From Rubellimicrobium sp. (lineage in GTDB: Bacteria; Pseudomonadota; Alphaproteobacteria; Rhodobacterales; Rhodobacteraceae): a stretch of DNA of 64,000 nt. The stretch is from the NCBI GenBank assembly GCA_019454835.1, contig JACFNP010000012.1:1-64000 (forward strand). Direction: 5' to 3'. Positions 2,346 to 24,053 of the stretch are shown here, in pieces. The number at the start of each line of letters is the position of its first letter. Position 1 is the first letter of the stretch. Position numbers and translations under genes: made by a program. The notes below the pieces were generated by a model, which made no database searches, was not told the DNA's origin, and saw only the letters and a list, made by a program, of their open reading frames with translations.

Positions 2346-3233
2346 ATGGTCCTGAGATGGATATGGGAACAACTGAAAAGCGCCGGGCGCATTGCCTGGG
2401 CGGTCTGGAACGTGTCGTCGCGCACCCATATGGGGCTGATCGCGGCGGGCGTGGCGTTCTACGGGTTTCTCGCGCTGTTCCCCGGCATGGCGGCGCTGAT
2501 CGCGATCTTCGGGCTGATCTCGGACCCCGAGGTCGTCCAGAGCGAAATCGAGCTGCTGCGCGACGTGATCCCCGACGCGGCCTTCGGCCTGATCGTCGAC
2601 CAGTTCACCCGGCTGCTGGCAGCATCGGGATCGGCGCTGCGCTGGACAACCTTCGTGTCGTTCGCGGTGGCGCTCTGGTCGGCAAGGGCGGGCGTGTCGG
2701 CGGTGGTGCAGGGACTGAACGCGATCTACGACATCCCCGACCGTTTCGGCCTGTGGCACGAGGTGCTGTCGCTTCTGATGACGGTCATATTGATGGGGGT
2801 CGCGGTGGTGGCGATGCTGATCGTCGTGGTCGCGCCCATCGTGCTGGCGGTCTTTCCGCCCTATCCGGCCATGGGCCTCGCGCTTGAAGGGTTGCGCTGG
2901 GGGACGGCCTTCGCGGTTCTCGTGGGCGGGTTGTGGATGCTGTATAACTACGGCCCCAACCGCCGCCCGCAGGGGCGCATCTGGATGACGCCGGGTGCGA
3001 TGGCGGTGGTGATCCTGTGGCTCCTCGCGTCCTGGGGGCTGAGCTATTATCTGTCGAACTTCGGTCGCTACAACGAAATCTACGGCTCGATCTTCGCGGC
3101 CATCGCGCTGCTCTTGTGGCTGTGGGTCTCGGCCTGGCTGATCCTGGCGGGGGCCGCGCTGAACGTCGTCATCGAGCGGCTGCAACGCAGGCGGCGGCAG
3201 GTCGCCGCGCAGGCCGCCAAGCCCCTCCCTTGA
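2346..3233 (+). CDS. YihY/BrkB-family inner membrane protein
   Basis: The 295-aa integral membrane protein has about six hydrophobic segments. Its N-terminal [15 protein letters not shown] motif and C-terminal [18 protein letters not shown] segment are characteristic of the YihY/BrkB family, once misnamed ribonuclease BN. The biochemical role of the family is not settled. The gene stands between lpxC and clpP on the same strand with a gap of 90 bp before it and 50 bp after it, and may be co-transcribed with either. The family call is confident; no function is proposed. Confidence 0.9.
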
Positions 3234-3283
3234 ACCCCGACTGGCGCGTCACTAAGACAGGGCGACCAACCCCCCAAAGGACC

Positions 3284-3925
3284 ATGAGCCAGATGAGAGA
3301 CCCGATCGAACATTACATGGACCTCGTCCCCATGGTCGTCGAACAGACCAGCCGCGGCGAGAGGGCCTACGACATCTTCTCGCGGCTGCTGAAGGAACGG
3401 GTGATCTTCCTGACCGGGCCGGTGCATGACGGCATGGCCAGCCTGATGGTCGCGCAGCTTCTGCATCTCGAGGCCGAGAATCCGAAGAAGGAAATCTCGA
3501 TGTATATCAACAGCCCCGGCGGTGTCGTCACCTCGGGCCTGTCGATCTACGATACGATGCAATACATCCGCCCCAAGGTTTCCACCCTGGTGATCGGGCA
3601 GGCGGCCTCGATGGGGTCGCTCCTGCTGACGGCGGGCGAAAAGGGGATGCGCTTCTCGCTGCCCAACAGCCGCGTCATGGTGCACCAGCCCTCGGGCGGC
3701 TATCAGGGCCAGGCCACCGACATCATGATCCACGCCCGCGAGACCGAAAAGCTGAAGCGGCGCCTGAACGAAATCTACGAGAAACACACCGGCCAGGATT
3801 ACGCGACGGTCGAGGCCGCGCTCGAGCGCGACAACTTCATGTCGCCCGAGGATGCCAAGGCATGGGGCCTGATCGACGACATCCTCGCCTCGCGCGGCAA
3901 GGAAGCCGATTCACCTGCGTCCTGA
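3284..3925 (+). CDS. clpP: ATP-dependent Clp protease proteolytic subunit ClpP
   Basis: ClpP is the tetradecameric serine protease that degrades substrates unfolded by ClpX or ClpA. The 213-aa product has the complete catalytic triad: Ser109 in QAASMGS, His134 in MVHQPSGG and Asp183 in ERDNFMS, plus the NSPGG oxyanion region. An AAAGGA Shine-Dalgarno at 3276-3281 is close to the ATG at 3284. The ATG at 3293 (MRDPIEHYM) has better spacing and matches many homologues, so the true start may be three codons later. clpX follows 118 bp downstream, the usual partner arrangement. Confidence 0.97.
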
Positions 3926-11230: not shown

Positions 11231-11258
11231 TTGGCGCATAATAGATAAACTGTAAAGT
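11231..11258 (+). other. attL: hybrid dif-like XerCD site, left prophage boundary
   Basis: A 28-bp site: XerC arm TTGGCGCATAA, central hexamer TAGATA and a divergent XerD arm AACTGTAAAGT. The left part matches bacterial dif, the right part does not. It shares the 15 bases GGCGCATAATAGATA with the site at 17890 in the same orientation. The reading is host XerC arm joined to phage XerD arm. Confidence 0.85.
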
Positions 11259-11280
11259 GCTTTTTCGGCGCACATCATCT

Positions 11281-11717
11281 GGGTGGCAGCGCCACCCGCA
11301 GGGCCGGACGGCACCGCGCAGGGCAGATGTGGTAGGTTTTTCGCCTGTTTAGGCGCAACTTACGCGCGAGCGCCGGGATGCGCCAATTATGCCACGGTGC
11401 GCCCCGTGGATGCCCGACTGGCCGGTGTCCGGTCGGCTGGAAGGCATCGAGACTGCGCCCCTTCGGGGCTTGCCCTTCGGGCGCCTTCGGCGGCTCGATG
11501 CCTTCCAGCCGACCGGACACCGGCCAGTCGTGATATTGATAGACGGAGCCGCGCGTGGCGCGGCACACGATAAGCAGGAACCGCCGCAAAGCGGCGGCAA
11601 GCCGCTAGTCGCGGTTCCTGCGCTGCGTTGCACACCAAGGACGTGCCGCCCACGGGCGGAAACGTGGGATTGAATTTTCGGCACGGTGACCGGCCAACCT
11701 GCGGCTCTAGAGAGCCG
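11281..11717. other. Structured non-coding region of the microvirus
   Basis: At least six perfect stems occur in a row: GGGTGGC/GCCACCC at 11281-11297, the 36-bp stem at 11416-11529, GCCGCGC/GCGCGGC at 11548-11564, an 11-bp stem at 11574-11621, nested stems at 11642-11685, and CGGCTCT/AGAGCCG at 11702-11717. No convincing gene was found here. This is a likely seat of single-strand signals such as complementary-strand initiation or packaging. Confidence 0.6.
11416..11529. repeat. 114-nt cruciform with three TTCG mini-hairpins in its head
   Basis: Two perfect 36-bp inverted arms (11416-11451 and 11494-11529) enclose 42 nt that hold three consecutive small hairpins, each with a TTCG loop (GCCCCTTCGGGGC, GCCCTTCGGGC, GCCTTCGGC). 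As single-stranded DNA or RNA it would fold into a long stalk with a three-fingered head. Confidence 0.85.
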
Positions 11718-11874
11718 GAAGGATAGCCGGAGGACAACCAGTCGATCGCGCGCGCCATTGCCACGACAGACGAGCGTGGCGGATCGGCGCCGTTGCGGCT
11801 CCGCCGCGAGCGATAACAGACGTGCCACTCCATCCAGAGCGTTTGTTGGTCACAGACGCATGGACGGCCCAAGA

Positions 11875-11923
11875 GCAAAAAACCGGCGGGCTGCGCCCGC
11901 CGCCCTCCGGGGTCGTTTTTTGC
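11875..11923. terminator. Bidirectional terminator at the end of the phage rep transcript
   Basis: GCAAAAAAC at 11875-11883 pairs with GTTTTTTGC at 11915-11923, around an inner GC stem CGGCGGGC-TGC-GCCCGCCG. An A run and a T run flank the GC core, so it can terminate transcripts from either side, in particular the - strand rep transcript. Confidence 0.75.
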
Positions 11924-11999
11924 GGCCGTCAACCGTCGTGGCGCATCTGTCAGCCTATTTGGCTGAGATGAAGAAAGGAGCGGCGGCAGCGGCAGCGCC

Positions 12000-12107
12000 T
12001 CACTTCCTGCCGATGCGCCAGAGGGCGCGGAGCAAGAGGGCGGCGAAGATCGCCGCGATGATCAGGGCCGCGAGCGCGATACCTGGCATCATCTGGATGG
12101 TGTCCAT
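12000..12107 (-). CDS. Phage TM microprotein downstream of rep (35 aa)
   Basis: A 35-codon ORF beginning MDTIQMMPG, followed by one hydrophobic segment (IALAALIIAAIFAALLLRAL) and a basic tail RIGRK. An AAGGA Shine-Dalgarno sits about 7 bases before the ATG. It is 144 bp after the rep stop and before the terminator region, so it is probably the last gene of the rep transcript. Topology suggests a small inner membrane protein with a cytoplasmic basic end; holin, lysis or superinfection-exclusion roles are possible. Nothing recognisable by family. Confidence 0.6.
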   Translation of the reverse strand: MDTIQMMPGIALAALIIAAIFAALLLRALWRIGRK

Positions 12108-12251
12108 GCTCAATCCTTGCACCAAGGGATGAAGGGCCTTCCCCGGCCCCCGCCGTGTCCGCCCTTCGGTCGGTTATCTTTCGGACGTTCCTTGCAGGTC
12201 GGCAAGTGTTGTCTGCGCACGTCATCAGGTGTGGAGCGTGAATTCCTGTCG

Positions 12252-13520
12252 TCATGCAGGGTTGCCGCCCCGAGTGGCGTCGAAAGGTCCGGCGGGGTCG
12301 GAGTTGGGGAAGACGAGGCGCGAGAGCTTCGTTCCTCGCGCAGAGCAGTGCGGGTTGCTACCGCCCCGCCCATCCCTCTGACGGTCTTCGACCGAGGGTG
12401 CTCCGTCCGTAGCGACATACTCCCAAGCGCCGCCGTCCGTCGGCCAGAGGCGGCGGACTTGGAGGGCGGCGAGGTCGTCGTCGCCGAGATTGTGGAGGCA
12501 GTCCCGACAGGGGAGCGAGGAGCCGCAGCGGCGCGCGAAGGCGCGGCGTTCGTATTCTGCGGCGTCCTGTCGGGCGCGGTTGGCGAACCTTGTCTCCTGT
12601 CGTTCGTAGTCCGGGTGTTCCGGGTCGTCCTCTGGCGGCGTGGCCGGGCCATTGAGTATCTCCATGTCGCTTTCGTTGTCGGCACACGAGGCCAGTAGGG
12701 CGGGCCACTGTGGCGCAGGGGCGCCGGTGGCCCATTCCGCGCGCTTGTTCAGCGCGACGAGGCCCCACAGCAGCGTTTCACGAAACCGCCCGTTCGGGTG
12801 GTAGTAGCCGGACAGGCCCGGCACCTTCAGTTTCGTGGAGGGAAGCACCGAGTGCGTTGCATCGAGCGCTTCCAGTTTCCGCATGAGCCACGTCTCGCCT
12901 ATGGGCGGGCGCTTGGACATTCGGAATAGACCAGTGGCGAAGTTCTCGGCCTTGGCCTCGCGCATCGTGCCGCGCGACTTTTCGCCGGTGAACTGGTCTT
13001 TGAGACAATACGAGAGGACATAAGCCATGCCCCCCTCATCGGGTTCTTGCAGCGTCACGAACCCGAAGGGCCACAGGGACCAGTTGAGGCGGCGTTTGCG
13101 CTTGCCGACCGTCATCATGTCCGCCCGAGCGGCAACCGCGCCGTAGCGGCCCCGGAAGGTCCCGATGCGCGTCAGATCGAGGTCGGAATACAGGATCAGG
13201 TGCCAGTGGCACCGCCCGTAGCGGTCGCCTTGCTCCCCGGCGCAGAGAAATCTCACCCTGGCGGATGGATCAGCGCGGCGGCAGGCTTGAGCCAGCCGCT
13301 TCAGGAACGCCCGGACATCGGCATAGGCGAACATGCGGGCGCCGTCGCGCCCTTGTTCGGTCTCGTCCGAGTAGGTCAGCGCCACGCAGAGCGTGTTCGG
13401 CCACATGGCCTTTTCGGCCATGGCCCGCGCGACCCAGCCGTGCCGCCTGACGGCGATGCACTCATCGCAGGTGCGGCAGGCGAAGGTTTTGCCTTGGTTC
13501 GTAATGGGGCGGGTGCACAT
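12252..13520 (-). CDS. Microviridae replication initiator (HUH endonuclease, gpA/VP4-like)
   Basis: The 422-aa product is a rolling-circle initiator that nicks the replicative form and ligates unit-length ssDNA. It has an N-terminal Cys cluster (CRTCDEC), the HUH motif HWH at about residues 105-107 (RCHWHLILYS), and the paired catalytic tyrosines Y167/Y171 in AYVLSYCLK. A further CxxC (LPCRDC) lies near the C terminus. The start at 13520 (MCTRPITNQG) matches microvirus initiators, with GAGAGG about 10 bases upstream; the frame is open further upstream but runs through a hairpin and the operator. It is the only gene of its class in the prophage and appears to have its own promoter. Confidence 0.92.
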   Translation of the reverse strand: MCTRPITNQGKTFACRTCDECIAVRRHGWVARAMAEKAMWPNTLCVALTYSDETEQGRDGARMFAYADVRAFLKRLAQACRRADPSARVRFLCAGEQGDRYGRCHWHLILYSDLDLTRIGTFRGRYGAVAARADMMTVGKRKRRLNWSLWPFGFVTLQEPDEGGMAYVLSYCLKDQFTGEKSRGTMREAKAENFATGLFRMSKRPPIGETWLMRKLEALDATHSVLPSTKLKVPGLSGYYHPNGRFRETLLWGLVALNKRAEWATGAPAPQWPALLASCADNESDMEILNGPATPPEDDPEHPDYERQETRFANRARQDAAEYERRAFARRCGSSLPCRDCLHNLGDDDLAALQVRRLWPTDGGAWEYVATDGAPSVEDRQRDGRGGSNPHCSARGTKLSRLVFPNSDPAGPFDATRGGNPA

Positions 13521-13542
13521 GGGGAAGGCGCCTCTCGTAGTG

Positions 13543-13574
13543 TCTATAAGTGCATACAGGAACAAGGGTATGCA
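13543..13574 (-). promoter_or_regulatory. Candidate rep promoter with palindromic operator
   Basis: On the - strand a perfect palindrome TGCATAC-N10-GTATGCA (13551-13574) is followed three bases later by TATAGA (13543-13548), a plausible -10 box. The palindrome would overlap the spacer and -35 region, the usual position for a repressor site. The rep ATG is about 23 bases further on. Confidence 0.5.
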
Positions 13575-13578
13575 GGCG

Positions 13579-13610
13579 CCCCGGCCCCCACGTTCGTTAG
13601 GGGGCCGGGG
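13579..13610 (-). terminator. Hairpin ending the phage structural transcript
   Basis: CCCCGGCCCCC at 13579-13589 pairs with GGGGGCCGGGG at 13600-13610 over a 10-nt loop, 5 bp after the stop of the last gene of the structural operon. No U tract follows, so it may be an attenuator or 3' stabiliser rather than a classical terminator. Confidence 0.5.
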
Positions 13611-13615
13611 CTTGG

Positions 13616-13789
13616 TCAGCGGTACCACCCCGGAGGGGTGCCCGCTTTTATCCAGGGCGCGCGCTGGTGAGACCACGCGCGATAGGTCGAGAAGGGTCCG
13701 CATTCACCGTCGTGAACGCTCCAGCCGAAAGCCCAGGAGATTTTCTCAGGTTGCTCGCGGATGCCCGCCCATTCAAAGAGGCTGACCAT
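13616..13789 (-). CDS. Phage small ORF, 57 aa, coupled to the amidase gene
   Basis: The ATG overlaps the amidase stop as TGATG, a standard reinitiation arrangement. The product begins MVSLFEWAGIREQPEK and is rich in Trp (WAFGWSVHDG, YRAWSHQRAPW). It has no membrane segment or signal peptide. The family is not recognised. It is the last gene before the hairpin at 13579-13610. Confidence 0.6.
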   Translation of the reverse strand: MVSLFEWAGIREQPEKISWAFGWSVHDGECGPFSTYRAWSHQRAPWIKAGTPPGWYR

Positions 13790-14238
13790 CAGAACACCGG
13801 AAGCCAATCTTCCTGTTTGACCTTGAAGCCGGGGCACAGCTTTTCAGCGTAGTCGTTGTGCCCGGTGACGCGCTCGATCCCGTCGATCTCGGCGATCTTG
13901 GCGCGCAAAGCGCGCCATTGCGCGGTCGTGAACCAGTCCCAGAACTGGCCGACACGCTCGACCTTGCGGCTTTCGATCAGGAGGAAGCCAAGGCTTCCCC
14001 GGTTGCGTTCGAGGCAATGGGCGCCGATGCGCTCGAAGTTGCGCCCGGAAACCCATGTGCCATCCGGCATGAACAGGCCGTGATAACCGAACCCGGTGAA
14101 ACCGCGTTCGACGTGCCATCGGTTGATGGTCGAGAAGACCTGAAAGCCGGACATGCCGTCGAATTGGCCGGTCCTGATTGCAGCGCAATGCAGGACGACC
14201 TCACGCACCGGATAACGGGCGTTGCCCTGAAAGATCAT
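13789..14238 (-). CDS. N-acetylmuramoyl-L-alanine amidase, T7-lysozyme-like endolysin
   Basis: The 149-aa product matches the Amidase_2 (PGRP/T7 lysozyme) family, which cleaves the bond between MurNAc and the stem peptide. Candidate zinc ligands fall where T7 lysozyme has them: His17 (VVLHCAA), His127 (TGHNDYAEK) and Cys135 (LCPGF), with the catalytic Lys133 and a GYHGLF motif between. There is no signal peptide, so a holin or other membrane protein would be needed for access to the wall. Its ATG overlaps the previous stop (ATGA). Classical microviruses of the phiX174 and gokushovirus types lack such an enzyme. Confidence 0.9.
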   Translation of the reverse strand: MIFQGNARYPVREVVLHCAAIRTGQFDGMSGFQVFSTINRWHVERGFTGFGYHGLFMPDGTWVSGRNFERIGAHCLERNRGSLGFLLIESRKVERVGQFWDWFTTAQWRALRAKIAEIDGIERVTGHNDYAEKLCPGFKVKQEDWLPVF

Positions 14239-14558
14239 TCGCGGTCCTCCACAAAGTGACAGTTCGAGACCCGGTAGGGCCGGTTGAACATGACGACGCC
14301 ATGCGTCTCGGTCAGATCGAGCCGATGCGTTCGCGCCGCGATCCGCACGGCGATGGAAACCGCCTGGGCGAAGTCGTCGGGCAGGTCGAAGCTATCGCCG
14401 TATTTCACGGCGAAGCCCGGCCCGGTTGTCAGAGGCACGGACTTGGCAGGCCAGCCGTGTTTCACGAGCGCCTTGACCACGAGCGCGGCCAAATAGGCGG
14501 CGGGGCCTTTGTCCTTCGGCACCCGCCACACGCGCTTGATGTAGCGCCTACTCGTCAT
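14235..14558 (-). CDS. Phage hypothetical protein, 107 aa
   Basis: A basic N terminus (MTSRRYIKRVWRVPKDKG) is followed by a compact alpha/beta-looking domain (AYLAALVVKALVKHGW, then FAQAVSIAVRIAARTHRL). It overlaps the preceding gene by 11 nt and the amidase by 4 nt, so it is translated as part of the structural/lysis operon. The family is not recognised. Its place beside the amidase suggests a lysis or wall-related role, but this is only context. Confidence 0.65.
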   Translation of the reverse strand: MTSRRYIKRVWRVPKDKGPAAYLAALVVKALVKHGWPAKSVPLTTGPGFAVKYGDSFDLPDDFAQAVSIAVRIAARTHRLDLTETHGVVMFNRPYRVSNCHFVEDRE

Positions 14559-15006
14559 TGGCGCCCTCGGGGTTGCCCTCGATCAGGTCGGGGGCCTTAT
14601 CGGCCTCGACCTTCTCCGCAGGGGGCGCCTTCGGGATGCGCTCGATGCTGGCAAGCGCGCGTTCGCGCCGCTCGACGCGGTCGGTCGCCGCCTTCATGCG
14701 GTTGAGCGTGACGCGCATTTCGCGCTCAAGGCGCGATGCCGAGGTCGGCTGATAGTCCGGGTTCGCGCCGCTGTCGGTCGCGCCCGGCCCGTAGGGCTGG
14801 ACCATGACGCGATGCCTGGGCGCCACGGCCACCAGCCCCTCGGAGACCTCGAAGGTTGCCCCATCGGGCAGAAGATCGAGGTAGGGCGCCGCCCGGACGG
14901 CGCCGGGCGGCACGGCGACGGTCATTACGACCTCGCCGTCAAGGACGACATCAAGGAAGCCGCCGTCCTTGGAGACGAGCGTCGTATTCCTGGTCACTTC
15001 GTTCAT
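14548..15006 (-). CDS. Phage protein in the scaffold (VP3) position, 152 aa
   Basis: The gene follows the major capsid gene by 4 bp. The start at 15006 (MNEVTRNTT) is preferred over an ATG at 15024 because GAGGA lies about 9 bases before it. The N-terminal half looks beta-rich (GGFLDVVLDGEVVMTVAVPP); the C-terminal half is predicted helical and charged (SRLEREMRVTLNRMKAATD, then ERRERALASIERI). A helical, charged protein next to VP1 is what internal scaffolding proteins look like, but sequence identity to VP3 is not obvious to me. Confidence 0.6.
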   Translation of the reverse strand: MNEVTRNTTLVSKDGGFLDVVLDGEVVMTVAVPPGAVRAAPYLDLLPDGATFEVSEGLVAVAPRHRVMVQPYGPGATDSGANPDYQPTSASRLEREMRVTLNRMKAATDRVERRERALASIERIPKAPPAEKVEADKAPDLIEGNPEGANDE

Positions 15007-15010
15007 GGGG

Positions 15011-16585
15011 TCATTCCTCATCAAAGATGTCGGCTTCGCCGATGATCGCCAGTTCCTCGACCGGGGTCGGGCCGATAATCATCGGGGTTTGGAGCACCGC
15101 GTTCGAGGACACGACGTAGGTGCAAACCTCGGCGTTCTGGTCCGCGAACGGGTAGTGGGAGAGGTTCTGCGGATAGAGGATGGTGTCGGGCGTCACCGAC
15201 AGCGGCACCTCTAGCTGCCAGACCGCCGTCTTGTTCTCGACCGTGTTCGGGTCGAGGTGGCGGTTCAGGCCGTAGTGCACGTAGGTGGCCTTCAACTGGT
15301 TCAGGCCCGTATACATGGTGACGGTGGCCTCGTCGCCGGACGCGCAGTCGCTGTCCAGTTCCCGGATGGTCACCGGGACGGGGTCGAGCGCAAGTTCGTC
15401 GGCAACGAAGTTATCGACGCCCCACACGTCCGAGAGGAACGGGTCGGGCTGCGACGAGATGGTTTCGTCGGGCTTGAGGCAGGCGAAAGTGATGACTATG
15501 CCGCCCAGTTCGGTCTTGGGGATGGGCACGTTGAAGCCCATCATCAGCATCATGTCGGAACGCATGGTGTCATCTTCGACGCCGACCTTGTCGGTAGCGC
15601 CGACGATGGAGCGCCCGAAGGCCCGCTGTTCCTGATAGATGACGAACGGGGTTTTCCCCGTATCGACGGAGAGGCCATGCGCCCAGCGGAGGACCATTTC
15701 CTCGCCATACTCGGGATTGTCGTCCACAATCTGGCGCATGGTGCGCGTCAGGCGGTCGCGGGTTTCGGCGTTGTAAAAGTCGGTCAGGGAGACCGCCCCG
15801 GCTTCCGCTCCATTGAGCGCCGCGACCACGCCGCTATAAGCGACATAAGCGTTGCCCGTGCTGGCAGCGGTTTCCGCGCCCATGTTCACCTGCGCCAGCT
15901 TCCCGTCGCTCGACCCCGTGGAAAGGGTTTTACCCTTCTGCAACGCGCCGCCCGAAGTCGAGCGAATTTCCGGCGCCGACGCCGGAAAGGTCACCGGCAA
16001 CGACATGTTCGGGATATCAAGCTGCACCGAACCGTTGATACGGTCGTCGGGGTCGAGAACCGCGTTGAAGCGGTCCAAGACGGTTTGCGAGATCAGCGCA
16101 GGGGTTATGGCGGTGTTGTTGGCGAGGAGCTTCGTCGCGTAGACATACTTGCGAACCCGCAGGAAGTTCACAGCGGCGTTGTGCGCAAGGCGCACCATTT
16201 CGTTGACCTTCTTCACGCCGCCGATGGAGCGCGGGTTGACCCCGAGCCGCTTGGAAATCTCGCCTTCGGCTTCGAGGCCGAATAGCGGATTGCCGGAAAG
16301 CAGCTTCTCGCGGATCACTTCCGTGAGGCCCGCGAAGTCGGCGTCGGGGTCCTTTATGGCGTCGATCGCCTGCACCGGCACGAAGACGGAAATGACCTCG
16401 CCCGTAATGGGCGTGATCATGCGGCCCGCGATGGGGTCGAGTTCAAGCGTGATCTGCTGCGAGAGCAGACCGCCCTCGTTGCCCCGGACTGGCACCGCCA
16501 GAACGGGCGCCAGCTTGCCGCCGCGAAAGCGGCCTACAAGCGTCCGGCTATCGCGCCGGACATTGCGGGTCGATTGATAGCTCAT
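15011..16585 (-). CDS. Microviridae major capsid protein (VP1/gpF)
   Basis: The 524-aa protein has the size and layout of microvirus VP1, the jelly-roll protein that builds the T=1 shell. Recognisable stretches are the N-terminal LDPIAGRMITPITGEVISVFVPVQAID, MRQIVDDNPEYGEEMVLRWAHG and the C-terminal FADQNAEVCTYVVSSNAVLQTP. An AAAGGG Shine-Dalgarno about 8 bases upstream lies inside the preceding microgene, whose stop overlaps this ATG (ATGA). No truncation or frameshift is visible. Confidence 0.92.
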   Translation of the reverse strand: MSYQSTRNVRRDSRTLVGRFRGGKLAPVLAVPVRGNEGGLLSQQITLELDPIAGRMITPITGEVISVFVPVQAIDAIKDPDADFAGLTEVIREKLLSGNPLFGLEAEGEISKRLGVNPRSIGGVKKVNEMVRLAHNAAVNFLRVRKYVYATKLLANNTAITPALISQTVLDRFNAVLDPDDRINGSVQLDIPNMSLPVTFPASAPEIRSTSGGALQKGKTLSTGSSDGKLAQVNMGAETAASTGNAYVAYSGVVAALNGAEAGAVSLTDFYNAETRDRLTRTMRQIVDDNPEYGEEMVLRWAHGLSVDTGKTPFVIYQEQRAFGRSIVGATDKVGVEDDTMRSDMMLMMGFNVPIPKTELGGIVITFACLKPDETISSQPDPFLSDVWGVDNFVADELALDPVPVTIRELDSDCASGDEATVTMYTGLNQLKATYVHYGLNRHLDPNTVENKTAVWQLEVPLSVTPDTILYPQNLSHYPFADQNAEVCTYVVSSNAVLQTPMIIGPTPVEELAIIGEADIFDEE

Positions 16586-16701
16586 GCGGATTTCCCTTTC
16601 GGTTTGATCTTGATGATGAGTTTCTTACCCGCGAGCTTCAGAAGCTCGCGGCGACGGGCGCAGCCCTCGCAAGGGCGGCGGCGGGGTTTCAGTGTGCCCA
16701 T
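16582..16701 (-). CDS. gpJ-like small basic DNA-packaging peptide (39 aa)
   Basis: A 39-codon ORF lies directly before the capsid gene. Its product starts MGTLKPRRRPCEGC and is strongly basic (ARRRELLKLAGKKLIIKIKP, then KGKSA). phiX174 gpJ is 38 aa, very basic, binds the ssDNA genome in the capsid and is also encoded immediately before the capsid gene F. The start has GGAG 9 bases upstream and overlaps the end of the pilot gene; the stop overlaps the capsid ATG. A CxxC pair is an unusual addition. Confidence 0.75.
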   Translation of the reverse strand: MGTLKPRRRPCEGCARRRELLKLAGKKLIIKIKPKGKSA

Positions 16702-17543
16702 GGATCAAGGCTCCACCGCTGCGGCGGGTAGCTGAACGGCGGGGGGGAGAGCGCAGAAGGCGACAGACCAGTCGGCGGATTGCGACGGGGCGGGCGCGGA
16801 AGGGGCTGGTAATACTGCCCGTCCGACATGCGCCAGACTTCTTCGCCGCGCGCCTGCGCGGCGCGACCGTCGCGGCGGTTCGCGTAGAGGTGGAGATTAT
16901 AGCGGGCGTCAGCCGCTATGCGCCCTGCGCCATACAACCACGACACCGCGTCGCCGTATTCTTGCTCGACAACTTCGGCAGGCGACCAGCCCGGCGCGGA
17001 GCCTATATAAAGGCCTCCAGCATATATACCATCGCCACGGTCCAAGCGATAATCAGAAGGGGCAGGATGGTTGCCACGAGGATGAAACACCCCAAAGCTG
17101 TCCACAACGCCTTCAGGGTTTTCATCGCCACGCGCTCCCAATGCGGCGCGCGTCGTCGGCACCGCTTCACGCTGTGCATAGACGCCGCCGACACGCGGGC
17201 GCAAGGTCAGGCTGCGAACCTGCTCCTGCAACTCGCGGTTCTGCTGTTCAAGCTGGCTGACCGCGCCGACTTCGTCCTGGCGCTTTGCCAGACCATCGGC
17301 GAGGATCATGCCAGCGTCGGCGATGGCCGACCCCATGTAAGCCGAGCTTTCCGAGGGGCCGACTGCGGAACTGACGCCGAGCAGCGTCAGCGGGTTGAAC
17401 CCGTATTCCTCCGCCGCGTCGCGGGCGCCTTGGGCTTGGCCCATGAGCGCGCCACGGCTGTTCTCACGCGCGGAGGTCTGTCTCGGGCGGCCCAAGATGC
17501 CGCCGAGCAGAGAGCCGCCAGCGCGGATCAGGTCGGGCCACAT
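16689..17543 (-). CDS. Microviridae DNA pilot protein (VP2/gpH-like)
   Basis: The 284-aa product shows the VP2 pattern. It has a Gly/Ala-rich N terminus with a hydrophobic start (LIRAGGSLLGGILG), the stretch EEYGFNPLTLLGVSSAVG typical of microvirus pilot proteins, a coiled-coil stretch (AVSQLEQQNRELQEQVRSL) and a Pro-rich tail. VP2 forms the tube that delivers ssDNA through the envelope. The ATG at 17543 overlaps the preceding stop as TGATG; an in-frame GTG at 17552 is possible. Codons over roughly 17004-17126 are unusually A/T-ending, explained by an overlapping gene there. Confidence 0.85.
   Translation of the reverse strand: MWPDLIRAGGSLLGGILGRPRQTSARENSRGALMGQAQGARDAAEEYGFNPLTLLGVSSAVGPSESSAYMGSAIADAGMILADGLAKRQDEVGAVSQLEQQNRELQEQVRSLTLRPRVGGVYAQREAVPTTRAALGARGDENPEGVVDSFGVFHPRGNHPAPSDYRLDRGDGIYAGGLYIGSAPGWSPAEVVEQEYGDAVSWLYGAGRIAADARYNLHLYANRRDGRAAQARGEEVWRMSDGQYYQPLPRPPRRNPPTGLSPSALSPPPFSYPPQRWSLDPWAH
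17003..17125 (-). CDS. Overlapping TM microgene inside the pilot gene (40 aa), candidate lysis protein
   Basis: In an alternate frame of the pilot gene, a 40-codon ORF starts with ATG preceded by GGGAG at 7-base spacing. Its product has a basic start MKTLKALW followed by one continuous hydrophobic stretch (CFILVATILPLLIIAWTVAM) and ends LEAFI. By hand count 28 of its 40 codons end in G or C, while the pilot frame over the same bases has only 15 of 41; just upstream the pilot frame has 18 of 26. The bias switch suggests selection on this frame. phiX174 gene E is likewise a TM lysis gene overlapping another gene. Confidence 0.65.
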   Translation of the reverse strand: MKTLKALWTALGCFILVATILPLLIIAWTVAMVYMLEAFI

Positions 17544-17743
17544 CAGCACCACCTCGCGAACTTGGACAGGTCGCGGCGCAGGGTCCGTTCGTTGACCCAG
17601 AAGATGTCCGCGACGATGGCCGCTTCGGGGGGCAGGGGCGCGTCGGGGTCATCGACCCAGTCGAAGGCCCCGTAATTCGCGAGCAGCGCCCAGAGGGCTT
17701 GCTCATAGGTCTGGACCGGCTCCCGGTAGCGCTCACCCCGCAT
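17543..17743 (-). CDS. Phage small ORF, 66 aa, upstream of the pilot gene
   Basis: The product begins MRGERYREPVQTYEQALWAL and ends ERTLRRDLSKFARWC; it is soluble-looking and moderately acidic in the middle (DWVDDPDAPLPPE). The ATG overlaps the 3' end of the preceding TM microgene by 11 nt and the stop overlaps the pilot ATG (TGATG). Context therefore supports translation. The family is not recognised. Confidence 0.6.
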   Translation of the reverse strand: MRGERYREPVQTYEQALWALLANYGAFDWVDDPDAPLPPEAAIVADIFWVNERTLRRDLSKFARWC

Positions 17744-17855
17744 AGCAGATCATCGCATATACGGAGGGATATTGAGCGGCGACGAGCGCCGACAGCGCTC
17801 CGACCACGGCGGGGATCACCGGGCGGAGCAGGGCCAGAAGGACAGGATTGATCAT
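17733..17855 (-). CDS. First phage gene: TM microprotein (40 aa)
   Basis: A 40-codon ORF with AGGA 5 bases before the ATG. The product begins MINPVLLALLRPVIPAVVG and is hydrophobic for most of its length, with prolines near residues 4, 12 and 15 and a short C-terminal YAMICYAG. It is the first gene of the structural operon and overlaps the next gene by 11 nt. Since the phage carries a signal-less amidase, a holin-like role is plausible; a membrane role in injection is an alternative. Confidence 0.65.
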   Translation of the reverse strand: MINPVLLALLRPVIPAVVGALSALVAAQYPSVYAMICYAG

Positions 17856-17861
17856 TTGTTC

Positions 17862-17888
17862 CTCGCGTCGTTACAGCTACGACGCGAG
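17862..17888 (-). promoter_or_regulatory. Perfect hairpin between attR and the first phage gene
   Basis: CTCGCGTCGT pairs with ACGACGCGAG over a 7-nt loop, one base from the XerC arm of attR. On the phage sense strand the stem's end merges with the Shine-Dalgarno of the first gene (GCGAGGAAC), so folding would hide that site. Confidence 0.6.
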
Positions 17889-17889
17889 A

Positions 17890-17917
17890 TAGGCGCATAA
17901 TAGATATTATGTTAACT
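17890..17917 (+). other. attR: intact dif-type XerCD site, right prophage boundary
   Basis: XerC arm TAGGCGCATAA, central TAGATA and XerD arm TTATGTTAACT give a full 11-6-11 dif architecture, close to the E. coli site (XerD arm TTATGTTAAAT). Phage XerC arm joined to host XerD arm is the simplest reading, so the prophage has rebuilt a usable dif at its right edge. It lies 19 bp from the tsf terminator. Confidence 0.88.
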
Positions 17918-18981: not shown

Positions 18982-19761
18982 TCAGGCTTCGGCAGCCGCA
19001 GCGGCGGCCTCTTCAGCCAGCGCCTCTTCGGCCAGTTCTTCCATCGCGCCGATATCGACACCGGCCGCGCCGAGCTGCGCCGACATGCCGTCAAGCGCGG
19101 CGCGCGCCGCCAGATCGCAGTAAAGCTGGATCGCCCGCGAGGCGTCGTCGTTGCCGGGGATGACATGGGTGACGCCGTCGGGCGAGCAGTTGGTATCGAC
19201 CACGGCCACGACCGGGATGCCGAGCTTGCCGGCTTCCTTGATCGCGAGATCTTCCTTGTTCACGTCGATGACGAACAGCAGGTCGGGCAGGCCGCCCATC
19301 TCGCGGATGCCGCCCAGCGAGGCCTGCAACTTGGTGCGCTCGCGCTCCATGTTCAGGCGTTCCTTCTTGGTCATCCCCTCGAAGCCGCGGTCGGCCAGCT
19401 CGTCCAGCGCGCGCAGCCGGTTGATCGACTGCGAGACGGTGTTCCAGTTGGTCAGCGTACCGCCCAGCCAGCGGTGGTTCATGTAGAATTGCGCCGAACG
19501 TTCGGCGGCTTCGGCAACCGGCTTCTGCGCCTGGCGCTTGGTGCCGACGAACAGCACCCGGCCGCCGCGTGCCACGGTGTCGCGCACCACCTGCAGCGCC
19601 GCGTCCAGCATCGGCACGGTCTGGGTCAGGTCGACGATATGGATGCCGTTGCGCGCCCCGTAGATGAACTCGCCCATGCGGGGGTTCCAGCGTGCGGTCT
19701 GGTGGCCGAAGTGAACGCCGGCTTCGAGAAGCTGGCGCATGGTGAACTCGGGCAGAGCCAT
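18982..19761 (-). CDS. rpsB: 30S ribosomal protein S2
   Basis: The 259-aa product has the S2 signatures [20 protein letters not shown] and the conserved ending of domain two ([19 protein letters not shown], then [20 protein letters not shown]). S2 joins the small subunit late and bridges head and body. A short Ala/Glu-rich C-terminal tail is common in this group. It is co-transcribed with tsf. Confidence 0.98.
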
Positions 19762-20168
19762 GCAATATATCCTTTCCGGTTTCGCCCTTGGACGGGGTCT
19801 CGGGGCCTTGCCCCAACCGGCGGACCCGTGCGGATGTCTCCCGCACAGGGCCCACCCCGCCTGTGAAGTGTGCGCCGCCTAGCGCTTATGCCGGGCGATG
19901 TCCAGAGCCGGACCCCCGCCTCAGCAGGGCTATCGCATTTGCCGAACATACGGCGCGCGACCCGCAGATTTCCCCCTTCGGGCGTGCGCAGCACGACCGG
20001 CGCCCGCCCCGCCCCCCAGGGCGGGCGCATCCGCGCCCACCCCCGGTGCGGGCGCCGGTCATGCTGCCCCAGCGTTGCAACATGCGGGCGGTCGCGCCGG
20101 GCATGTGCGATTGCGTTGGGCAAGGGGGAGTCGGGGGATTGCGGGACAATCGGGGGAACGGCACATTT
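19762..20168. other. rpsB upstream region with an inverted repeat, no gene seen
   Basis: No convincing gene. The rpsB promoter and leader must lie here. An inverted repeat GACCGGCGCCCGC/GCGGGCGCCGGTC (19995-20007 and 20048-20060) encloses a second GC-rich stem. Its distance from rpsB (about 240 bp) makes a link to S2 autoregulation uncertain. Confidence 0.4.
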
Positions 20169-20258
20169 CGTCATTGCGAGGAGGCGCAGCCGACGAAGCA
20201 ACCCCGATGCTGCGCGCAAGCCGTCGGGGTTGCTTCGGCTGCGCCTCGCAATGACGGG
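20169..20258 (+). repeat. Family-A palindromic repeat, copy A3
   Basis: Plus orientation, between rpsB and the PAS gene. It is followed by the associated tail (GGGGGTTGCGGGCCGC ... GTTCGCCCGATTGCCCTG) also seen beside A1, A6 and A7. Confidence 0.9.
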
Positions 20259-20470
20259 GGTTGCGGGCCGCAGCGCCGTTCCGACCCGCGCAGCCGCAGT
20301 TCGCCCGATTGCCCTGCCCTCCGCCTTCATCTTTCCGCAAATATCCTGGGAGGCAACGCCCCCCTGCCCCGGTTAACCGATTAGCAATTTGGCAACTTCC
20401 CGGCCCCCGCCGGTCGCGCTAGATTTGCGTCGAAATCGCGTCAATTTGCCCCCGCATCCGAGGTCCGGCC

Positions 20471-21088
20471 ATGCGCAGCCCCGATACCGGCGATCCGCCC
20501 GACGCGCTGGCGCCCGCGCTCGCGGCGCTCGAGGCGCATTGGCACGGGCTGCGCGGCCCGCGTCTCATGCCCGCGCGCGGCGAGATCAGGGCGCGCGACA
20601 TCGACCCCGCGCTGCCCTGCCTGTTTCTTGCCGAGCCGGTGGCGCCGTCGGTGCTGCGCATCCGTCACGCCGGGCGGAGCTTTGCCGGGGTGGCGGGGAT
20701 GGAACCGCGCGGGATGCCGCTGTGCGCCTTCTTCACCCCCGAGGGCCGCGCGGCGCTGCGTCCGCTGCTGGCCGAGATGCAGGAAAGGCCCGCGATCCTT
20801 GGTCTCGACCTGATTGCCGGGCGCGGGATCGTCGCGCCGCGCGTCGCGGCGCGGCTGCTGATCCTGCCGCTGTCCGACACCGGCCTGCGGCCCGATTGTT
20901 TCGTCGGCGTGCTCGCCTGCCCGGCCGCCGTGCAGCGCCCGCTGCGCTTCGACATCGGCGCGGGGCCGGTGCGGCTCGATCCGTTGCAGGCGGGCGCGGC
21001 GCGGCCGCGTCTGGTCGCCTCGGGCGGGCTGCGGCGGGCCGGGCACGCCCCGCGCCCGGCCCTGCGTCTGGTGGTGGCGAACGGCTAG
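20471..21088 (+). CDS. PAS-domain protein (PAS_5-like)
   Basis: The 205-aa product resembles the alphaproteobacterial PAS_5 family: an N-terminal helix (LAALEAHWHGLRGPRLMPAR), LPCLFLAEPV, then a PAS-like core (VLRIRHAGRSFAGVAGMEPRGMPLCAFF). There is no output domain, so it would be a stand-alone sensor or adaptor; members of the family are often linked to developmental or envelope signalling, but no specific role is known. The TAG stop is created by the first bases of family-B copy 2. The C-terminal 40 residues are Arg/Ala-rich and poorly structured. Confidence 0.72.
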   Translation: MRSPDTGDPPDALAPALAALEAHWHGLRGPRLMPARGEIRARDIDPALPCLFLAEPVAPSVLRIRHAGRSFAGVAGMEPRGMPLCAFFTPEGRAALRPLLAEMQERPAILGLDLIAGRGIVAPRVAARLLILPLSDTGLRPDCFVGVLACPAAVQRPLRFDIGAGPVRLDPLQAGAARPRLVASGGLRRAGHAPRPALRLVVANG

Positions 21089-21191
21089 AGCATTTCGCAG
21101 TCAAATGGTAACATTTGACGCCCGCGACAATGCGCAAAAACAAAGGGTTAGAGCGGGTCCGCCGAATCCGTGAAAACGCGACCCGCTCTAA
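21086..21191 (+). repeat. Family-B dispersed repeat, copy 2
   Basis: Nearly identical to copy 1 (TAGAGCATTTCGCAGTCAAA ... GAGCGGGTCCGCCGAATCC ... GACCCGCTCTA). Its TAG is the stop codon of the PAS gene; the other end is 2 bp from the stop of the convergent DAHP synthase gene. Confidence 0.92.
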
Positions 21192-21193
21192 GC

Positions 21194-22564
21194 TCAGCCG
21201 TTTGCCGCCTGCGCCAGATTGCGCCGCCGCGCCGACAGTTCCTCGGCGACCAGAAACGCCAGTTCCAGCGACTGGCTGGCATTCAGGCGCGGATCGCAGG
21301 CGGTGTGATAGCGGCTCGACAGGTCCTCGTCGGTCACCGCGCGCACCCCGCCGGTGCATTCGGTCACGTCCTTGCCGGTCATCTCGAAATGCACCCCGCC
21401 GGGGATCGTGCCCTCGGCGTTGTGGACGGCGAAGAATTCGCGGACCTCGCGCAGCACGGACTCGAAGGGCCGGGTCTTGAAGCCCGAGGACGACTTGATC
21501 GTGTTGCCGTGCATCGGGTCGCAGGTCCAGGTGACATTCGCCCCTTCCTCGCGCACCGCGCGGATCAGGCGCGGCAGGTTTTCACCCACGTTGCCCGCCC
21601 CGAAGCGCGCGATCAGCGTGACGCGCCCGGCCTCGTTGTTGGGGTTCAGCTTCTGCAACAGCGCCTTGAGATGCCCCGAGGTCAGCGACGGGCCGCATTT
21701 CAGCCCGATCGGGTTCAGCACGCCCCGGCAGTATTCGACATGGGCGCCGTCGGGCTGGCGGGTGCGGTCGCCGATCCAGATCATGTGCCCCGACCCGGCC
21801 AGCACCTGCCCGGTGGTCGAATCAACGCGGGTCAGCGCCTCCTCGTATTCGAGCAGCAAAGCCTCGTGGCTGGTATAGAATTCCACCGTCTGCAGGACAT
21901 GCTCGGCCTCGTCGCGGATGCCTGCGGCCTCCATGAAGTCGAGCGTGTCCGAGATGCGGTTGGCGAGATCGCGGTATTTCGACGCCTCGGGCGCGCCGGT
22001 GAAGCCCAGCGTCCAGGCATGGACCGCGTGCATGTCGGCATAACCGCCGGTGGAAAACGCGCGCAGCAGGTTCAGCGTCGCCGCCGCCTGCGTGTAGGCC
22101 TGCAGCATCCGCGCCGGATCGGGCGTGCGCGCGGCGGGGTCGGGATCGAAGCCGTTGATGATGTCGCCCTTGTAGGAGGCAAGCTCGACGCCGCCGACCA
22201 CCTCGGTCGGCGAGGAGCGCGGCTTGGCGAACTGGCCCGCCATGCGGCCGACCTTCACCACCGGCACCTTGGCGCCCCAGGTCAGTACCATGGCCATCTG
22301 CAACATGACCTTGAAGGTGTCGCGGATGCTGTCGGCGGAAAACTCGGCAAAGCTCTCGGCGCAGTCGCCGCCCTGCAGCAGGAACGCCTCGCCCCGGCCG
22401 ACGGCGGCAAGCTGCGCCTTCAGGCGCCGCGCCTCGCCGGCAAAGACCAGCGGCGGATAGGAGGCGAGCCGTTGTTCGACCGCGTGCAGCGCATCGGCGT
22501 CGGGATAGTCCGGCATCTGGATCCGGGGAAGATTGCGCCAGTCGGTTTTCTGCCACTCGGTCAT
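21194..22564 (-). CDS. Class II 3-deoxy-7-phosphoheptulonate (DAHP) synthase
   Basis: This enzyme condenses phosphoenolpyruvate and erythrose-4-phosphate, the first step of the shikimate pathway. The 456-aa product is a plant-like class II (AroA-II) enzyme: [39 protein letters not shown] and [21 protein letters not shown]. The start at 22564 ([15 protein letters not shown]) is decided by AAGGAG six bases upstream; an ATG at 22570 touches that Shine-Dalgarno. Single gene, convergent with the PAS gene. Confidence 0.96.
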
Positions 22565-22700
22565 CTGCATCTCCTTGTGCCGCCGGAAAGCTGCTGGCGG
22601 TCTGCGTCGGAGTGCGGGTATAGCCCCGGCACGAGATCAAGTCCAATGCCTGCGCCGCGCTGCAGAGCGACCGGGCGCGCGGCGTGTTTCGTCATCATAT

Positions 22701-22793
22701 CCCGTCATTGCGAGGAGCCGCAGGCGACGAAGCAACCTCGATGGTTGTGCGCGAGCGGTCGGGGTTGCTTCGGCTTCGCCTCGCAATGACGGG
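22701..22793 (+). repeat. Family-A palindromic repeat, copy A4
   Basis: Plus orientation, in the divergent interval between DAHP synthase and the GlxA-type regulator. It has complete opening and closing arms (CCCGTCATTGCGAGG, CCTCGCAATGACGGG). Confidence 0.9.
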
Positions 22794-22921
22794 CTTGGCA
22801 ATGGCGGGATATTCGCGTCGCGCGGCCGCCGGTCGCGGCGGGATGCCGCATTTGACGCATCATCTGTCGCATCGTATCGAGACCCTGCGGCGAATCGGTC
22901 CCGCGCACCGGAAGTCGTCCC

Positions 22922-23953
22922 ATGACACGCAGCTTTTCACCAGCCCTCTCCGCAACCCGCGCCGCGCAGCCCCGCGACGGCGTGCGCCGGTTCGTCTTCG
23001 TGCTGCTCGACCGCTTCACGATGCTCTGCTTCGCCAGCGCCGTCGAGGCGCTGCGCATCGCCAACCGCATGGCCGGGCGCGACCTCTATAGCTGGACCAT
23101 CATCAGCGAGGGCGGCACCCCGGTCGCCTGCTCGAACGGCACGGTGTTCCAGGTCGACATGGGCCTCGAGGCGCTTGAACGCGACGACACCGTGTTCCTG
23201 TGCGGCGGCATCGACGTGCAGGACGCGACGACGCGGCATCTTCTGGGCTGGCTGCGGCGCGAGGCGCGGCGCGGCATTACCATGGGCGGTCTGTGCACCG
23301 CAGGCTACACGCTGGCCAAGGCCGGGCTGCTGGACGGCCGGCGCGCGACGATCCACTGGGAAAACCACGACGGTTTCGCCGAGGAATTCCAGGATGTCGA
23401 ACTGACCAAATCGGTCTTCGTCATCGACGGCAACCGGATCACCACGGCGGGGGGCACGGCGTCCATCGACCTGATGCTGAAGCTGATTGCCGACGACCAC
23501 GGCGAGGAACTGGCCAATGCGGTGGCCGACCAGCTCATCTATTCGTCGATCCGCACCGACCAGGACACGCAGCGCCTGTCGATCCCGACGCGCATCGGCG
23601 TGCGCCATCCGCGCCTGTCGCGCGTCATCCAGATGATGGAGCAGGCCATCGAGGAACCGATCAGCCCCGCGACGCTGGCCCGCGACGTGGGGATGTCTAC
23701 CCGCCAGCTCGAACGGCTGTTCCGCCGCTACCTCGACCGCAGCCCCAAGCGCTATTACATGGAACTGCGGCTCCAGAAGGCCCGCAACCTGCTGATGCAG
23801 ACCGACATGAGCGTCATCAACGTCGCGCTGGCCTGCGGCTTTGCCAGCCCGTCGCATTTCTCGAAATGCTACCGCGCGCACTACCATATCACCCCCTACC
23901 GCGAACGCGGCAGCCAGGGCGCGCAGCCCGCCGCGGGCGGCCGCGAAAGCTGA
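22922..23953 (+). CDS. GlxA-family transcriptional regulator (DJ-1/PfpI + AraC HTH)
   Basis: The 343-aa product has a DJ-1/PfpI-like sensor domain (residues about 20-190; GGLCTAGYTLAKAGLLDGR) and a C-terminal AraC-type double HTH (about 235-330; SPATLARDVGMSTRQLERLF and INVALACGFASPSHFSKCYR). The layout and YYMELRLQKARNLL are typical of regulators of choline, glycine betaine or carnitine catabolism (GbdR/CdhR group), but the target cannot be told from here. The nearest downstream operon is the branched-chain amino acid type transporter, separated by two repeats; control of that operon is possible. Confidence 0.88.
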   Translation: MTRSFSPALSATRAAQPRDGVRRFVFVLLDRFTMLCFASAVEALRIANRMAGRDLYSWTIISEGGTPVACSNGTVFQVDMGLEALERDDTVFLCGGIDVQDATTRHLLGWLRREARRGITMGGLCTAGYTLAKAGLLDGRRATIHWENHDGFAEEFQDVELTKSVFVIDGNRITTAGGTASIDLMLKLIADDHGEELANAVADQLIYSSIRTDQDTQRLSIPTRIGVRHPRLSRVIQMMEQAIEEPISPATLARDVGMSTRQLERLFRRYLDRSPKRYYMELRLQKARNLLMQTDMSVINVALACGFASPSHFSKCYRAHYHITPYRERGSQGAQPAAGGRES

Positions 23954-23961
23954 TCGTGTTT

Positions 23962-24053
23962 CCGTCATTGCGAGGAGGCGCAAGCCGACGAAGCAACCCC
24001 GATGTCGTGGGTGAGCGGTCGAGGTTGCTTCGGCTGCGCCTCGCGGGTGACGG
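23962..24053 (+). repeat. Family-A palindromic repeat, copy A5
   Basis: Plus orientation, directly after the regulator stop. The closing arm is altered to CTCGCGGGTGACGG. It forms a tight direct pair with A6 (11 bp apart). Confidence 0.88.

Follow-up and report, generated by a model that had tools for sequence, protein, structure and literature searches.

Temperate microviruses of Bacteroidetes are said to have been treated in an earlier paper (PMC3091885). For the element considered here the nearest published system is Rhodobacter phage Ebor (PP754850.1), a plaque-forming, dif-flanked microvirus prophage of an alphaproteobacterium whose wall hydrolase was verified experimentally, Gp7 degrading Rhodobacter peptidoglycan, and whose genus-level group includes further Rhodobacteraceae prophages (PMC11980548, mBio 2025). 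A 5.4-kb Microviridae prophage has been described in three roseobacters (PMC8224337). Use of XerC/XerD and dif by a microvirus without an integrase is also known from the Gokushovirinae of enterobacteria (genomes of 4.3-4.7 kb), where lysogeny of E. coli by EC6098 requires xerC, xerD and a dif motif on the phage, and where greater variability is reported for the spacer and XerD arm of the phage-side site (PMC7062461, eLife 2020). Elements of the VGJphi type, which are filamentous, carry a single dif-like site in double-stranded DNA as the phage attachment site (attP) and integrate reversibly through an exchange started by XerC; in VGJphi itself, the mismatch lies within the central region, adjacent to the XerD site (PMC4246890). 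We analyzed 64,000 nt of Rubellimicrobium sp. (assembly GCA_019454835.1, contig JACFNP010000012.1, positions 1 to 64,000; the window), in which a 6,659-bp element occupies positions 11242-17900. With a probability of about 0.9, we read it as a temperate microvirus of the proposed Tainavirinae (Microviridae), near Ebor, that is inserted in the chromosomal dif of its host, a bacterium of Rhodobacter kinship.

The edges of the element are marked by identical 15-bp direct repeats, GGCGCATAATAGATA, that start at 11233 and 17892, 6,659 bp apart, and that form the cores of two dif-type sites:

11233-11258, plus strand: left junction, with XerC arm GGCGCATAA (11233-11241), central hexamer TAGATA (11242-11247) and degenerate XerD arm AACTGTAAAGT (11248-11258)
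17892-17917, plus strand: right junction, a complete rebuilt dif, with XerC arm (17892-17900), TAGATA (17901-17906) and XerD arm TTATGTTAACT (17907-17917)

The right copy, GCGCATAA-TAGATA-TTATGTTAACT, lies on the tsf side and is, with up to 3 mismatches allowed, the sole match to dif in the 2.87-Mb assembly of the same organism, where a reversed control pattern gave none. In the left site the XerC side of the host is joined to the XerD side of the phage; it matches the full dif at 20 of 25 positions, and all five departures are in the XerD arm. If the XerC cut falls between the XerC arm and the hexamer, the boundaries of the element are 11242 and 17900. An earlier sequence-only reading of this DNA had given the same start and length but had placed the end one base further on, at 17901; its description of a dif-like XerCD site at each end agrees with our data, as does its statement that there is no integrase, in that the nine open reading frames (ORFs) scanned against Pfam and PHROGs matched no integrase family. 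The element thus combines two traits of integrative mobile elements exploiting Xer (IMEX), the lack of an integrase of its own and a dif-type site at both ends.

A looser dif pattern matched 190 genomes of a 394-genome family sample, its reversed control matching nine, and four genomes showed two matches among the matches listed. The position of tsf is known for 25 genomes of the family, of which 13 have a dif match among those listed; dif is less than 4 kb from tsf in ten of these 13 (own genome included), 29 kb away in one and on another contig in two. In view of this proximity in relatives, the site beside tsf in the window is most likely the chromosomal dif, and a dif within 4 kb of tsf/rpsB offers a handy marker for finding the site in this family. 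The hexamer TAGATA was found in the dif of two genomes, G000 (that of the window) and G214, among the matches listed. The sequence-only reading had exposed itself to contradiction by close relatives that lack both the prophage and a dif at this position; in genome G085, of the same genus and without a VP1 match, an empty dif-type site lies about 0.2 kb beyond tsf. Insertion in the chromosomal dif with an empty site in a relative, a further IMEX trait, is therefore also seen, with synteny on one flank only. As a separate observation, window DNA of the right flank (19761-24000) matches G085 (L042) on both sides of its dif, which suggests rearrangement around dif within the genus.

All recognized genes of the element are on the minus strand, and its G+C content is 64.8%, compared with 68.6% and 67.6% in the flanks taken. 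The order in virion sense is gp1-like, gp2-like, VP2, 39-residue peptide, VP1, gp5-like, gp6-like, amidase, HUH initiator, gp10-like and non-coding, as follows:

17733-17855, minus strand: gp1-like small hydrophobic ORF, 40 residues (translation; placed like Ebor gp1)
17543-17743, minus strand: gp2-like protein, 66 residues (36% identical to Ebor gp2, E 1e-5)
16689-17552, minus strand: VP2, DNA pilot protein, H-like, 287 residues (34% to Ebor VP2 over residues 13-243, E 7e-18)
16582-16701, minus strand: Lys/Arg-rich gpJ-like peptide with CxxC, 39 residues (translation; directly upstream of VP1)
15011-16585, minus strand: VP1, major capsid protein, 524 residues (62% to Ebor VP1; 9ffg, E 8e-214)
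14548-15024, minus strand: gp5-like protein, 158 residues (38% to Ebor gp5, E 5e-23)
14235-14558, minus strand: gp6-like protein, 107 residues (48% to Ebor gp6, E 2e-21)
13789-14238, minus strand: N-acetylmuramoyl-L-alanine amidase of the T7-lysozyme family, likely endolysin, 149 residues (Amidase_2; 65% to Ebor gp7)
12252-13520, minus strand: VP4, HUH rolling-circle replication initiator (Rep), 422 residues, ATG at 13520 (REP_ORF2-G2P; about 51% to Ebor gp9)
12110-12685, minus strand: basic gp10-like ORF that overlaps the 3' end of rep, with an uncertain start codon (F[IV]PWC motif at the C-terminus)
11259-12109, minus strand: strongly structured non-coding region of about 0.85 kb, from the gp10-like ORF to the left junction (folding z-scores)
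11415-11451 and 11494-11530, no strand: arms of a 37-bp perfect inverted repeat with a 42-nt loop (repeat search)

VP1, VP2, the gpJ-like peptide and the HUH initiator, all named in the sequence-only reading, are thus present; the gp1-, gp2-, gp5- and gp6-like genes, the basic ORF overlapping rep and the inverted repeat were absent from its list. Of the nine ORFs, only two exceeded the Pfam cut-offs, Rep with REP_ORF2-G2P and the amidase with Amidase_2, and PHROGs recognized the same two genes; VP1 had no PHROGs match and only a sub-threshold chance match in Pfam. The 40-residue ORF gave no clear sequence match to Ebor gp1 (best tblastn E 0.98). To the right, the element is followed by tsf and then rpsB; the left flank encodes a protein with a FliMN_C domain.

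Comparison of the DNA with 50,697 phage records returned two matches, Ebor and Ascunsovirus oldenburgi ICBM5 (a Sulfitobacter phage, OM782324.1). VP1 matched 15 of the phage records, Ebor at 61.8% (62% over 100% of the length), ICBM5 at 59.4% (59% over 99%) and the remainder at 21-25%, and the solved Ebor capsid protein (9ffg) aligned with it at E 8e-214. Both of the higher values exceed the VP1 identity thresholds of PMC9239249 (mBio 2022), at least 30% for the family and at least 50% for the genus, over at least 80% of the length, by which we judged membership of the proposed Tainavirinae. Of the traits by which Microviridae are recognized, a homologous VP1/F, an HUH initiator (VP4/A) and a pilot protein (VP2/H) are found in the element, and the comparison of VP1 and Rep with this family that the sequence-only reading had called for bore it out, at 62% and about 51% identity to Ebor. 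In a 17-row VP1 tree, the window groups with Ebor and ICBM5, apart from the Rhizobium, tortoise and Ciona microviruses; supports are 91/99 for a ten-row group and 91/97 for an eight-row subgroup, which is unresolved inside.

The resemblance to Ebor extends to genome size (6,611 versus 6,659 bp) and to the gene order VP2-VP1-gp5-gp6-amidase-Rep-gp10, with Ebor counterparts of VP1, VP2, gp2, gp5, gp6, gp7 and gp9 in the same order and gp10 recognized at its C-terminus by tblastn; the Ebor attP, too, has an intact XerC half and an altered XerD half. In contrast, Ebor has a putative methylase, gp8, for which tblastn found no match in the window, whereas the 39-residue gpJ-like peptide of the window is lacking in Ebor; moreover, the non-coding region of the window is longer and more structured, and the reported Ebor site is in the cbbII operon while that of the window is beside tsf. 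ICBM5 shares VP1 (59%), Rep (40%) and a gp5-like protein, but is smaller (5,581 bp), lacks matches to gp6, the amidase and the 39-residue peptide, and showed no attachment site of the tested shape. As compared with VGJphi, the central hexamers of the window agree and it is the XerD arm itself that is altered.

The element is thus an alphaproteobacterial microvirus lodged in dif, as the sequence-only reading had proposed; the site is beside tsf and is the only full dif found in the assembly. That reading holds but is not new, Ebor having been published with the same life style and wall enzyme, and the accompanying remark that temperate microviruses are rare and that few are known with wall-lysis enzymes is dated in the light of the Ebor report (PMC11980548). 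The locus provides a complete example of a small single-stranded DNA phage in the chromosome-dimer resolution site and leaves knowledge of the kind unchanged; what comparison adds is the gpJ-like peptide, a recurring phage attachment design and a double insertion in Pseudogemmobacter humi.

Related insertions were collected from two sources. VP1 was found in seven of the 394 family genomes, own included, with pieces only in two (G327 and G214, where the ends were covered by the dif scan only) and a distant form in one; four named loci came from a second scan of genomes, and one of them, Rhodobacter sp. SW2, was taken to be the same as G111 of the family sample and counted once. This yielded eight insertions besides that of the window in seven genomes, namely Rhodobacter sp. 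SW2 (L005), Oceanicola sp. S124 (L007), P. faecipullorum (L006), P. humi (L004, two insertions), G328 (L043), G382 (L047) and G026 (L048), and dif-type sites were recognizable at both ends in seven of the eight. The site is less than 4 kb from tsf in L004, L005 and L048; tsf was not within the stretch fetched for L006, L007, L043 and L047. The prophages of L005, L007, L004 and L006 have VP1 proteins 65-69% identical to that of the window and the full gene set, including the gpJ-like peptide and the amidase, but measure about 6.1-6.4 kb where ends were found, and L004 differs in carrying two microviruses at one dif. In IMG/VR, the VP1 and Rep searches gave one relative each, and the gp6 search none. 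As for G214, its dif with TAGATA is at C10:10745-10761 and its VP1 piece on another contig, at C18:62397-62792.

In the life cycle that this anatomy would support, circular single-stranded DNA enters the cell and is made double-stranded, and host XerC and XerD recombine the phage attachment site (XerC arm, TAGATA and weak XerD arm) with the host dif. After integration a full dif would remain beside tsf, so that chromosome dimer resolution should survive, and the reverse reaction would release a 6,659-bp circle, which the HUH initiator would drive into rolling-circle replication. The capsid would be formed and filled by VP1, VP2 and one or both of the basic proteins, and opening of the wall would fall to the amidase. 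By analogy with the VGJphi-type elements, we infer that XerC starts the integration of the window phage. Searching the host assembly with the XerD family model returned two XerC/XerD-type matches (302.9 and 213.6 bits), which are plausibly XerD and XerC. We use the words temperate and intact on the strength of the sequence, as a prediction that excision, replication, virion formation and lysis take place.

Several observations weigh against our assignment of the element as a temperate, dif-borne tainavirus. Both host recombinases score under the curated XerD cut-off of 329.6 bits, no repressor-like gene was recognized in the element, and no dif-type attachment pair was found in P. faecipullorum (L006). 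Both tainavirus groups in the VP1 tree fall below the 95/80 support mark of the tree tool itself. The left-flank proteins had no match in 14 related loci and the left-flank DNA none in G085; with this flank not conserved, the case for an empty site depends on the tsf side. The left XerD arm is degenerate, which could favor integration by chance or by another recombinase, the dif-like ends being coincidental; this is very improbable, however, given that a 15-bp identical repeat stands exactly at both edges, one copy being the only full dif of the assembly, and that the same arrangement recurs in seven of the eight other insertions examined.

Another explanation is a cryptic, non-inducible remnant, in which frames are open but neither excision nor virions occur. 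Decay does exist among the relatives, at least the amidase frame of L007 (9593-10036) having an in-frame stop at codon 63 and G327 and G214 retaining only pieces of VP1; in the window, however, the frames of VP1, VP2, Rep, the amidase, gp2, gp5 and gp6 are open and near Ebor lengths, the catalytic motifs are kept and both junctions are recognizable, so that we regard a remnant as unlikely. A plasmid-like or satellite rolling-circle element could be suspected from the Pfam match of Rep, which is to the general REP_ORF2-G2P family, and from a VP1 with neither a PHROGs match nor a Pfam match over the cut-off. The 62% identity of VP1 to the solved, virion-forming capsid protein of Ebor and the presence of VP2 and of an endolysin make a non-phage origin hardly credible, and we retain the temperate microvirus as the explanation of the locus.

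The two enzymes of the element are well preserved, Rep and the amidase both retaining their catalytic residues. The initiator has the motifs HWH and YVLSY, and the corresponding HxH and YxxxY are shared by every one of the 13 initiators compared, among them that of the window and those of two viral contigs. The amidase aligns with T7 lysozyme over residues 12-142 (E 3e-14), and the positions that we take to be the zinc ligands and catalytic pair of T7 lysozyme line up in it, making it a likely endolysin.

Comparison of the attachment sites shows a recurring pattern. Read from XerC to XerD, host dif XerD arms begin with TT, whereas the phage XerD-side arm begins with AA in the window, L005, L007, L047, L048 and Ebor and with AC in L043; among sites of the window's polarity, Ebor included, the inner TT is thus replaced by AA in six of seven and by AC in the seventh. 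Of the two P. humi phages, the left one keeps TT and departs further on in the XerD arm, whereas in the right one it is the XerC arm that is damaged, the XerD arm being normal. This pattern is reminiscent of the variable phage-side sites of enterogokushoviruses and of VGJphi, in which the exchange is the work of XerC. The eight integrated elements whose ends are known have five different central hexamers. Within each element the hexamers of the two ends agree, which is weak evidence, as the site-pair searches demanded near-identical cores and the agreement was partly built in. A common rule for dif-borne tainaviruses could be proposed tentatively, with doubt outweighing confidence: the XerC arm is kept, the variable central hexamer of the host is copied and the inner TT of the XerD arm becomes AA. 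Coupled to it, and sharing the same doubt, is the suggestion that the right phage of P. humi follows the mirror design, with its damaged XerC arm, so that two microviruses share one dif. If the rule were true, XerC alone would start integration, re-excision driven by FtsK/XerD would be disfavored and a wild-type dif would be rebuilt for the host, and the range of hosts open to lysogeny would depend on the hexamer. With nine insertions in eight genomes to compare (window included), it becomes testable whether a weakened XerD half and a host-matched hexamer decide the direction, stability and host range of Xer-mediated microvirus lysogeny.

The P. humi locus (L004, NZ_UXAW01000089.1, 558-12914) contains three dif-type sites and, at a single dif, two different microviruses placed back to back. 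The left phage (558-6811, minus strand) has a VP1 of 551 residues that groups with that of G026, and an M15-type peptidase at 2756-3439; the right phage (6811-12914, plus strand) is a tainavirus.

The window and six relatives (L004 right, L005, L006, L007, L047 and L052) carry a Lys/Arg-rich peptide of 32-43 residues that ends at or just before the VP1 start, with Cys, Arg and Lys positions in common; phiX174 J occupies the same place before F in a comparison of gene order. No such peptide was found in Ebor, L043 or L048, and ICBM5 has an unrelated-looking 31-residue basic ORF inside the end of VP2. The peptide is thus a candidate gpJ in a group whose published isolate is without one, and in Ebor it is Gp10, a virion protein, that its authors propose as the J analogue (PMC11980548). 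The C-terminal F[IV]PWC motif of the gp10-like ORF occurs in all 12 elements looked at, and in the window it lies past the end of rep, outside the overlap. With the same doubt as for the attachment rule, the group may fill its capsid with two basic proteins, the gpJ-like peptide and the gp10-like protein.

The non-coding region is distinguished by its 37-bp perfect inverted repeat, of which two matches occur in the window against none expected, and none elsewhere in the assembly. Folding of the region as single-stranded DNA gave a z-score of -10.65 (11260-12110, 20 shuffles), and of -16.06 for a slightly different slice. Strong structure as a common trait of the group's non-coding regions was considered and set aside, nine relatives giving z-scores between -2.96 and -8.95 and four coding stretches of the element scores between -2.02 and -6.52; the -16.06 of the window alone stands clearly apart from the coding controls. 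Nor was the region recognized as a known RNA, as the five Rfam matches had E up to 1 and none reached the gathering score, the best being a plant-style microRNA model on the long hairpin (53 of 128 bits). It had no plasmid match and only weak, short phage matches (E 0.07), with short weak matches in five of 60 related genomes besides its own. As a guess, the hairpin region may be a terminator or a complementary-strand origin. The non-coding region of the window shares nothing beyond 14 nt with certain short conserved stretches that are common to some of the non-coding regions of L005, L006, L007 and Ebor (L002), stretches that are possibly origin elements. The Ebor region further contains two copies, about 80% identical, of a 56-nt stretch.

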